Source: Runella defluvii (GTDB lineage: Bacteria > Bacteroidota > Bacteroidia > Cytophagales > Spirosomataceae). Taken from it: a stretch of DNA of 64,000 nt. Below are positions 28,684 through 30,413 of this stretch, piece by piece. The position numbers and the translations under genes are program-made. Positions within the stretch are counted from its first letter, which is position 1, and each line of letters begins with the position of its first letter. A model generated the notes under the pieces. It did no database searches, had not been told where the DNA came from, and worked only from the letters and a program-made list of their open reading frames with translations. The stretch is taken from positions 538,206 to 602,205 of the forward strand of contig NZ_JACIBY010000002.1 in NCBI RefSeq assembly GCF_014195535.1. Direction: 5' to 3'.

Positions 28684-29196
28684 CTAAAATGCGTGTTCGT
28701 ACACGTATAATTTGTCTTTCAATTCTTTTCGAGCAATGTGAATCCTGTTTTTGACTGTTCCAATCGGAATACGCAAACGCTCCGCAATTTCATGGTATTT
28801 GAATCCTCGGTAGTGCATCATAAACGGCGTACGGAACGATTCTTCTAATGAATCTACGGCGCGGTTGATGTCATTCATTATAAACGTTGAAGGCGCGTCA
28901 TTATCCGTGCTATTCTCAAGCGAATTGATGTAGTACAAATTTTCAGATTCGTCAATGAAAGTATTCTTCCTTACCATGCGCTGATAGTTGGTAATGAACG
29001 TGTTTTTCATAATTGTGTAGAGCCACGCTTTTAGGTTAGTTCCATCAGCATATTTTTCTCGGTTGGTAAACGCCTTCAACAAGGTATCTTGAAGCAAATC
29101 ATTGGCATCATCATGGTCTTTGGTGAGGCGCATGGCAAATGGTTTCAATGACTTTGAAACTTTTGAAATATTGTAGGTGAATTCTATGGCGGTCAT
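28684..29196 (-). CDS. ECF-type RNA polymerase sigma factor
   Basis: A 170-residue ECF sigma factor. Region 2 (about residues 10-80) has DANDLLQDTLLKAF and NLKAWLYTIMKNTFI, and region 4 (about 110-165) has SLEESFRTPFMMHYRGFKYHEIAERLRIPIGTVKNRIHIARKELK split into its two helices. No anti-sigma or FecR-like gene lies next to it, which is common for the conserved Bacteroidota group of short ECF factors. Upstream are a good TTTG-N21-TAACTTTG promoter and three dyads described separately, one across that promoter, hinting at autoregulation. Confidence 0.92.
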   Translation of the reverse strand: MTAIEFTYNISKVSKSLKPFAMRLTKDHDDANDLLQDTLLKAFTNREKYADGTNLKAWLYTIMKNTFITNYQRMVRKNTFIDESENLYYINSLENSTDNDAPSTFIMNDINRAVDSLEESFRTPFMMHYRGFKYHEIAERLRIPIGTVKNRIHIARKELKDKLYVYEHAF

Positions 29197-29218: not shown

Positions 29219-29246
29219 GTTTAATCTTTATGAAGCAAAGTTAAAC
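29219..29246. promoter_or_regulatory. GTTTAA dyad 1, overlapping sigma gene promoter
   Basis: GTTTAA (29219-29224) and TTAAAC (29241-29246) with exactly 16 bases between them, starting 22 bases upstream of the sigma factor start codon. The right half overlaps the probable -7 box of the sigma gene (29236-29243 on the minus strand). Half-site centres are 22 bases apart, two helical turns, as expected for a dimeric regulator bound to one face. Confidence 0.6.
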
Positions 29247-29268
29247 AATAATATTTTACAATACCAAA
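29236..29268 (-). promoter_or_regulatory. Probable promoter of the ECF sigma gene
   Basis: On the minus strand TTTG (29268-29265) is followed after 21 bases by TAACTTTG (29243-29236), an exact fit to the Bacteroidota -33/-7 consensus TTTG-N19-21-TAnnTTTG. The predicted untranslated leader is about 30 bases. Confidence 0.65.
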
Positions 29269-29418
29269 CCTATTTTGGAAATTATAGAACAAAATCCTAC
29301 TAATTTTATTCTAAGCGACTAATTTTAATGTCTTTTACAATGCCTTTTTTCCAAAAAAACAAGTCAAAAAGAAGCAAAAAAGGGGCATTTTACACAAAAA
29401 AGTACAATTTTTAGTTTT

Positions 29419-29446
29419 GTTTAATTTATAGAAAAATAAGTTAAAC
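29419..29446. promoter_or_regulatory. GTTTAA dyad 2
   Basis: GTTTAA (29419-29424), 16 bases, TTAAAC (29441-29446): the same architecture as dyad 1, exactly 200 bases further from the sigma gene. The DNA between 29247 and 29418 is A/T-rich, with no gene visible. Confidence 0.5.
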
Positions 29447-29468
29447 AAAATCAAAAATTCTAATGTCT

Positions 29469-29496
29469 GTTTAATATTAAAAACAATCTATTAAAC
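29469..29496. promoter_or_regulatory. GTTTAA dyad 3
   Basis: GTTTAA (29469-29474), 16 bases, TTAAAC (29491-29496). It begins 50 bases after dyad 2. As in the other two, the left half-site continues as GTTTAAT. Confidence 0.5.
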
Positions 29497-29527: not shown

Positions 29528-29558
29528 AAAAAAGCGCCACTTTCGATGGCGCTTTTTT
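29528..29558. terminator. Rho-independent terminator
   Basis: AAAAAAGCGCCA and TGGCGCTTTTTT pair perfectly around a seven-base loop. It lies 33 bases beyond the end of the epimerase gene, so it most likely ends the prmA-epimerase transcript; it is symmetrical and could act in both directions. Confidence 0.9.
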
Positions 29559-29591: not shown

Positions 29592-30413
29592 TTAGAGTGC
29601 GTAATAAAAATCTAAAGGGTTGGGGTACAAAAACGAATAGGGAAGGTGCGTTTGCAGGCGCTCCGACGAAATCAGTTTGTAAGGCGCTGAAGCATCATCC
29701 TCAAACGTTGGAGGAATATACCCAAACGGTTCGCAACTCCCCAAATAAACCTCGCGGCGGGTAGGATGTTGGGGCGAAACCACGTTATAGGTTTGATTCC
29801 ATGCTTCGTTGGGCGAAGATAAAAACGTTTCAATGATTCCGATGGCGTCGTCGCGGTGCAGATAGTTGACGGGCAAATGCCCCGTCGTCAGATTTTTTTT
29901 ACCCGATACGTATTTTGCAGGAATACGCTCGTAGCCCATCAAGCCACCGCAACGAAGCACGAGCCACGTTTTTCCTACTTCCTGAATGATACGCTCGGCT
30001 TCGACCAAGGCAGGTGCCGCCGCCTGCTCGGGTGTTATTACGTCGTCTTCTACCGCCGTCCGATTGTCATCGGCATAGACCGACGTTGAACTTACGTAAA
30101 TCACGCGCTGCACCGAGCTATTTTTTAGCAAAGTGGCCAGGTGCTCGATTTGGGCAGGATGAAACGTCGCGCCCGTGTGCGCCAATCGCGGCGGGATATT
30201 TACAACCAACACTTCGGTATCCAACAAATAGTCCCAGCCTATTCCTTTCGGTTCGGGCGACAATTGCAGCCAAAGCGGCTCAATCCCTGCCTGACGCAGT
30301 TCGCTCAGTTTTTCGGCACGGGTTGTTGAGCCTCTGACCACGTGTCCTTGTTCTATGAGTTTTTTGGCCAAAGGTAAGCCCAGCCAGCCACATCCTAAAA
30401 TACTTACTTTCAT
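29592..30413 (-). CDS. NAD(P)-dependent epimerase/reductase (YeeZ-like, extended SDR)
   Basis: A 273-residue SDR-fold protein. The nucleotide-binding motif is GCGWLGLPLA at residues 8-17, and YVSSTSVYAD supplies a Ser/Tyr pair, but the usual YxxxK is not evident, as in the YeeZ/YbjS-like atypical SDRs. KYVSGKKNLTTGHLPVNYLHRDDAIGII is the substrate-side conserved block. The start codon overlaps the prmA stop (ATGA), so translation is coupled. The substrate is unknown. Confidence 0.75.
   Translation of the reverse strand: MKVSILGCGWLGLPLAKKLIEQGHVVRGSTTRAEKLSELRQAGIEPLWLQLSPEPKGIGWDYLLDTEVLVVNIPPRLAHTGATFHPAQIEHLATLLKNSSVQRVIYVSSTSVYADDNRTAVEDDVITPEQAAAPALVEAERIIQEVGKTWLVLRCGGLMGYERIPAKYVSGKKNLTTGHLPVNYLHRDDAIGIIETFLSSPNEAWNQTYNVVSPQHPTRREVYLGSCEPFGYIPPTFEDDASAPYKLISSERLQTHLPYSFLYPNPLDFYYAL

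Follow-up and report, generated by a model that had tools for sequence, protein, structure and literature searches.

Conserved inverted-repeat dyads upstream of a Cytophagales ECF sigma factor gene as candidate operators of a CarH/LitR-like MerR regulator

Dyads and promoter at the sigma gene

The window analyzed here, a 64,000-nt stretch of the Runella defluvii genome, carries an ECF sigma factor gene on its minus strand, preceded by a promoter and three copies of a single inverted-repeat dyad. The features of the locus are as follows.

28684..29196, minus strand: gene of a 170-aa ECF sigma factor containing regions 2 and 4 (open reading frame; Pfam Sigma70_r2/r4_2)
29219..29246, no strand: proximal dyad O1, GTTTAA-N16-TTAAAC, over the -7 box (sequence, shuffles, orthologue conservation)
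29236..29243, minus strand: -7 box TAACTTTG (read on the sense strand)
29265..29268, minus strand: -33 element TTTG, separated by 21 bases from the -7 box (sequence)
29419..29446, no strand: distal dyad O2, 200 bp from O1 (sequence, shuffles, conservation)
29469..29496, no strand: distal dyad O3, 50 bp past O2 (sequence, shuffles, Runella conservation)
29528..29558, no strand: terminator-like hairpin, flanked on either side by an A/T tract (read by eye)
29592-30413, minus strand: upstream gene on the same strand as the sigma gene, ending at 29592 (open reading frame list)

The sequence-only reading that drew attention to this locus had described three identical dyads with an identical 16-base spacer, 200 and 50 bases apart, and its positions were matched exactly: GTTTAA-N16-TTAAAC occurs three times in the window, with these same start-to-start offsets, against a mean of 0.01 in 100 dinucleotide-preserving shuffles, none of which reached three. 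It had also described a near-ideal TTTG-N21-TAACTTTG promoter for the sigma gene, and this too was found on the minus strand, with its -7 box lying within the first dyad. The hairpin sits between the end of the same-strand upstream gene and the distal dyads, and with that gene ending at 29592, O2 and O3 thus appear to be part of the sigma gene’s own control region.

Genome-wide, the exact element is rare: the R. defluvii assembly (7.99 Mb, 50 contigs) holds six copies, three of them in the window, against four for a backwards control pattern. The extended form TTGTTTAA-N16-TTMAACAA, allowing at most one mismatch and matched on both strands, picks out only the three window dyads and a fourth place at C11:~67984-67986; two more places carry one mismatch on one strand only, and the N17 form adds one further place at C3:626773-626805 (L210), with one mismatch on each strand. 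At two mismatches the two strands yielded 30 and 37 matches for N16 (control 27 and 28) and 35 and 38 for N17 (control 28 and 26), and because these counts lie close to the control the weaker sites cannot be trusted; a wide regulon was consequently dropped and the strong sites alone were retained.

Conservation of the dyads and the question of looping

Of the family genomes, 103 of 121 encode a sigma orthologue of at least 61% identity, and no other listed relative exceeds 47%. We compared the upstream regions of all 103, which span 31 genera, taking the best dyad within 20–95 bp of the ATG as proximal and that within 110–345 bp as distal, with 20 shuffles per locus. The best proximal dyad scores 12/12 in 40 loci, 11 in 34, 10 in 17 and lower in 12, so that 74 of the 103 reach at least 11/12 where shuffles predict 0.3, and 91 reach at least 10/12, a score that shuffles yield about five times; each of the 31 genera contributes at least one locus at 10/12 or better. 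The best distal dyad is perfect in 46 of the 103 loci (0.05 in shuffles) and scores 11/12 in a further 21 (2 in shuffles). The spacer is conserved along with the arms, 94 of the 113 exact-arm pairs being spaced by 16 (81 pairs) or 17 bases (13 pairs) and all remaining spacings from 0 to 60 together accounting for the other 19. Within Runella itself (genus g1, ten loci), O1 scores at least 11/12 throughout, nine loci carry a perfect O2 dyad between -241 and -251 relative to the ATG, and nine carry an O3-like site of at least 11/12 (N16 or N17) between -286 and -301. Both half-sites and spacer are therefore kept across orthologous sigma genes, while shuffling reproduced the observed dyad rate neither in the window nor in the orthologues’ upstream DNA. 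The proposal that the dyads form an operator set is strongly supported by this conservation of half-sites, spacer and promoter overlap in 31 family genera and other Cytophagales, and the comparison likewise lends strong support to the three window dyads acting as a conserved operator.

The overlap with the promoter recurs among the orthologues. Among the family loci whose proximal dyad reaches 10/12, 61 of 91 carry a TAnnTTTG box there, of the Bacteroidota -7 consensus type, and the other 30 have no strict match. In 50 of the 61 the box abuts the right arm, in seven, the type to which the window belongs, it lies in the left arm, and in four it lies elsewhere; NTTG at a spacing of 21 accompanies it in 37. 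Such an overlap between the -7 box and the proximal dyad is well suited to repression, and it suggests that the sigma gene may be repressed in the dark.

The individual arms further hint at what might bind them. Excerpts of PMC9304148 give the CarH repeats as 11-bp nnnnTnnACAn units, and the half-site consensus TTAAACA contains TAAACA, which matches the CarH core TnnACA. Across 150 upstream stretches (103 from the family and 47 from named genomes, five of which repeat family genomes), the 250 arms found opposite a perfect arm comprise 150 perfect ones, 77 with one substitution, 12 with two and 11 with more; TnnACA is kept in 72 of the 77 single-substitution arms, and substitutions at free positions number 93 of 101 by weight, although such counts draw on related rather than independent sequences. 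When distinct single-substitution arms are counted only once, the core is kept in eight of 11 (p 0.065), and in the 20 distinct one- or two-substitution arms free positions account for 23 of the 29 changes, where 3/7 would be expected (p 7e-5). The tandem 11-bp direct repeats that characterize CarH operators were not found in these dyads, whose arms are inverted, separated by N16 or N17 and spaced 22–23 bp centre to centre; as dyads outside the family moreover recur after about 44 bp, the half-sites fall on a 22-bp grid.

The sequence-only reading had further raised the possibility of looping between O1 and the distal pair, and here the outcome is divided. Perfect distal dyads are widespread, lying 179.5, 188, 200 or 250 bp from the proximal one in Runella and at 164–165 bp in g2, 188 bp in g7, 212 bp in g12, 233.5 bp in g35, and 75, 120 and 151 bp in g23; in seven further genera (g3, g5, g9, g17, g19, g27 and g30) every listed locus has them 204.5–207 bp apart. 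Helical phasing, by contrast, found no support over 18 genus-level distances (Rayleigh p 0.13–0.60 for periods of 10.3–11.0), in a test that paired best-scoring sites and hence entered R. defluvii at 250 bp and four g23 loci at 75 bp, and it was set aside as a proof of looping. The constant distance of about 205 bp can also have a cause other than looping, since further conserved blocks lie between the distal and proximal dyads of that clade. Looping between O1 and O2/O3 is therefore best described as possible.

One of these blocks, TTCCACA-N3-TGkGG-N6-TTCCACA, borders the inner side of the distal dyad in genera of the Spirosoma/Larkinella type (L032, L070, L072, L101 and others). Searched with two mismatches in ten genomes, nine of which had been chosen beforehand from the 205-bp clade, it was found at the sigma locus in eight; the two matches in R. 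defluvii lie away from that locus, G004 has one extra match and G069 none, and by eye the block is missing from the DNA between the window’s sites. TTCCACA itself fits TnnACA and may therefore represent further half-sites, whereas a role for the block as an RNA attenuator is unconvincing given z-scores of -1.85, -0.93 and +0.79 in three examples. These observations bear on an alternative role for the distal pair, namely control of a distinct promoter further upstream, or of a transcribed leader, in place of action at a distance on the sigma promoter; this role is compatible with the explanation we favor for O1. It draws on the g17 distal dyad, which itself contains a TAnnTTTG box, on the conserved blocks downstream of the distal dyad in seven genera (both read by eye) and on the lack of helical phasing; yet a -7 box is not a constant of distal dyads, examples from g5 and g27 having none by eye, and the TTCCACA block is absent between the window sites. 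On balance we hold this role for the pair to be rather unlikely, if still worth entertaining.

A candidate binder and its carotenoid neighborhood

The identity of a candidate binder emerges from gene order outside the family. Among the best 80 of 575 sigma relatives in named genomes, we assigned 42 loci to other families (Algoriphagus, Belliella, Marivirga, Roseivirga and others, many from metagenome assemblies), two of which hold less than 1500 bp upstream, and called crtI-like genes by sequence motif. Within this set a merR gene lies upstream of sigma on the same strand in 28 loci, ending no more than about 540 bp from the sigma ATG in 27 of them and about 1.1 kb away in L263; a crtI-like gene follows sigma in 35; a proximal dyad is present in 39, the exceptions being L285, L289 and L293; and a second dyad stands 43–45 bp upstream of the first in 33. 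All four features occur together in 24 of the 42. In the named family loci from the same best 80, a crtI-like gene is found next to sigma in 25 of 38, so that in non-family and named family loci alike the sigma gene shows the crt linkage by which carotenogenic ECF factors are recognized. In Runella no crtI-like gene was found after sigma at any of the ten loci, and crtI lies elsewhere in the genome. Between sigma and crtI, a TTTTTGGTTAAAAAAGAGGAAGGTTC-like conserved stretch with a terminator-like hairpin behind it recurs in several genera (L021, L033, L072, L073, L090, L113 and others); it may be a small RNA or a regulated terminator.

The dyad also accompanies merR on its own. Genus g32 has no sigma orthologue, and there the dyad is found at the merR promoter in nine of nine merR loci, with a desaturase-like (crtI-like) gene next; in genome G021 it lies between merR and a set of crtI-like, crtB, lycopene cyclase and photolyase genes. 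More broadly, a dyad of at least 11/12 lies in the 500 bp before merR at 16 of 30 loci and is missing from the other 14; at the R. defluvii merR no dyad of at least 9/12 was found from about 635 bp before the gene to 65 bp into it. The merR gene is present in 114 of the 121 family genomes, in a single copy in R. defluvii, and the sigma gene is absent from five of the seven genomes without merR against 13 of the 114 with it (one-sided Fisher p 0.0007, in genomes that are related and thus not independent). Two genomes with sigma and dyad have no merR match (G010 and G013), both less than 90% complete, as is G023, one of the five genomes that have neither gene.

The R. defluvii MerR protein, encoded at C2:64435-65316 about 500 kb from the dyads, combines an N-terminal MerR DNA-binding domain (PF13411, E 3.4e-16) with a B12-binding domain (PF02607, E 2.5e-9), and its best PDB matches are Thermus thermophilus LitR/CarH (E 1.6e-16, residues 4–218 of 290). 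In an alignment of 72 MerR rows that counts six genes twice, the W, E and H of CarH are each kept in all 72 rows and the axial His is kept in 71; the W, the E-H pair and the axial His have known roles in CarH. An AlphaFold2 model of an Algoriphagus orthologue, 58% identical to the R. defluvii protein (pLDDT 86.6), retrieves CarH as the first-ranking structure, with a TM of about 0.8 to the cobalamin domain (target-normalized) and about 0.58 to the full chain (query-normalized, large rmsd), the full-chain fit perhaps reflecting a different predicted placement of the domains. The PF02607 match and this model together indicate the helical bundle plus Rossmann domain by which CarH-type proteins bind B12. 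As the R. defluvii protein scores 86.5 bits against the NCBI CarH equivalog NF052513, below its cut-off of 400, we file it as a CarH/LitR-like relative and not as CarH itself. Together, sequence, conserved residues and predicted fold point to a CarH/LitR-like MerR B12 photoreceptor as the putative binder. Its gene is adjacent to a carotenoid synthesis gene (PF04240) and, on the other side and one gene further, has a 6-pyruvoyl-tetrahydropterin synthase (PTPS) gene as neighbor.

Genes beyond sigma and merR can also carry the dyad. The fourth strong R. defluvii site (L169:7987-8014) lies upstream of a two-domain fasciclin gene, and dyads precede fasciclin homologues at 10 of 30 loci, the other 20 having none of at least 11/12, in a count made without a shuffle control. 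At L050, L051 and L053 the dyads lie upstream of PTPS and GTP cyclohydrolase I (folE) genes (Pfam assignments on L051 and L053), enzymes that could presumably serve photolyase cofactor supply. No dyad of at least 11/12 was found in the 180 bp read upstream of Runella crtI (12 loci) or photolyase (26 loci), one crtI locus having a 10/12 dyad and some open reading frame starts being uncertain, so that control of these genes would need the sigma factor as a relay. Conserved boxes were seen in their upstream DNA, in which no common sigma-target motif could be settled: a CAAAACCTA..GTAGTTTTG-like inverted repeat precedes the second photolyase gene at several Runella loci (photolyase set L333-L341), while upstream of Runella crtI (L308-L319) there is a CGTATATTC-like box together with AAACCG. 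Both may be sites of the sigma factor or of another regulator.

Proposed circuit and relation to known systems

In light of these results we propose, with good though not full confidence and from comparative sequence data, that the dyads are operators of the CarH/LitR-like MerR photoreceptor, which would repress the carotenogenic ECF sigma gene in the dark and release it in the light. In the dark, MerR carrying adenosylcobalamin would bind the inverted TTAAACA half-sites at O1 and block the housekeeping promoter at its -7 box, with bound O2 and O3 raising occupancy, perhaps via contact with O1; light would then break the cobalamin bond, the repressor would leave, and the sigma factor so made would presumably turn on carotenoid and photoprotection genes. 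A bolder version has the B12 photoreceptor, seated on inverted half-sites along a 22-bp grid, bridge the promoter and operators about 200 bp distant into a light-gated DNA loop over sigma throughout the Cytophagales, with the same operator found at merR-crt in genomes without sigma as a case of evolutionary rewiring; taken as a whole, this we regard as speculative and unlikely.

Other explanations of the dyads fare worse. The region is A/T rich, as the idea of chance repeats would have it, but the shuffles and control patterns contradict that idea and have already refuted it, leaving it a practically negligible probability. It is also conceivable that the sigma factor regulates itself, each dyad being an ECF promoter with its -35 and -10 elements across a 16–17 spacer and no repressor site at all: the 16/17 spacing does resemble that of ECF promoters, and the site overlaps the start region. 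However, the element is symmetric, is repeated 43–45 bp upstream outside the family and 75–250 bp upstream within it, also precedes merR in g32, a genus without the sigma orthologue, and is itself overlapped by a TTTG-N21-TAnnTTTG promoter, and we consider autoregulation of this kind very improbable. A different repressor, with the MerR link owed to a shared neighborhood, deserves only slightly more credence. The g32 dyad lies between merR and a divergent gene for an XRE-type protein, and either product could thus bind it there; but 23 of 61 family genomes, some of them from the dyad-bearing genera g3, g5 and g9, lack an XRE homologue at E <= 1e-20, whereas merR is present in nearly all family genomes (114 of 121) and precedes the dyads at 28 of the 42 non-family loci from the best 80 of 575, and variation of the half-sites follows the CarH core TnnACA. 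On its distribution over these 61 genomes, the XRE protein is rejected as a general binder.

The predicted MerR-sigma circuit resembles, without matching, several systems known from other bacteria, here compared through excerpts of the cited papers. In Streptomyces coelicolor LitR-LitS-crtE, a B12-based MerR protein governs the gene of an ECF sigma factor, which in turn transcribes a carotenoid promoter (PMC12705666), the same pairing of MerR-B12 regulator and ECF sigma gene that we propose for Runella. That organism belongs to another phylum, however, its LitR is described as promoting litS transcription in the light whereas the promoter overlap in Runella suggests repression in the dark, and a dyad with distal copies is not described for LitR in the excerpted parts of PMC12705666. 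With CarH of T. thermophilus and Bacillus megaterium the Runella protein and its sites would share domain order, predicted fold, the W, EH and His residues, the half-site core TnnACA and an operator overlapping the promoter, there a sigma-A one (PMC8156234, PMC9304148, in part). They differ in that those operators comprise three or four tandem 11-bp direct repeats according to the same excerpts, while here the half-sites are inverted and 22–23 bp apart centre to centre, the dyads are repeated about 44 bp or mostly 150–250 bp apart, and the direct target is a sigma gene. Myxococcus xanthus likewise joins MerR-B12 proteins (CarA/CarH) and an ECF sigma factor (CarQRS) in one photoprotection circuit, but there CarQ is released from an anti-sigma factor, and CarA/CarH act on the crt promoter and not on carQ (PMC8156234, PMC9304148, in part). 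In a Cytophagales relative, the carotenoid cluster of Echinicola marina has the same rpoE and merR gene content; the portions of PMC8683446 consulted report that content with no operator or mechanism, and the terms LitR and light are absent from its main text.

We found no description of this operator in the excerpts of the open-licence PMC literature, in which PMC7064467 and PMC11796333 have no bearing on the operator. As far as these sources extend, operator geometry and wiring differ from both LitR-LitS and CarH, whereas the merR-rpoE-crt gene content is already known from Echinicola (PMC8683446). The analysis thus provides a predicted light-response circuit for a group of Bacteroidota in which the operators are mapped and the regulator and sigma factor are named. 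The suggested binding of a CarH-like protein to inverted and not direct repeats bears on how one MerR-B12 scaffold may read different operator geometries, and the locus offers a compact candidate part for light-controlled expression in Bacteroidota.
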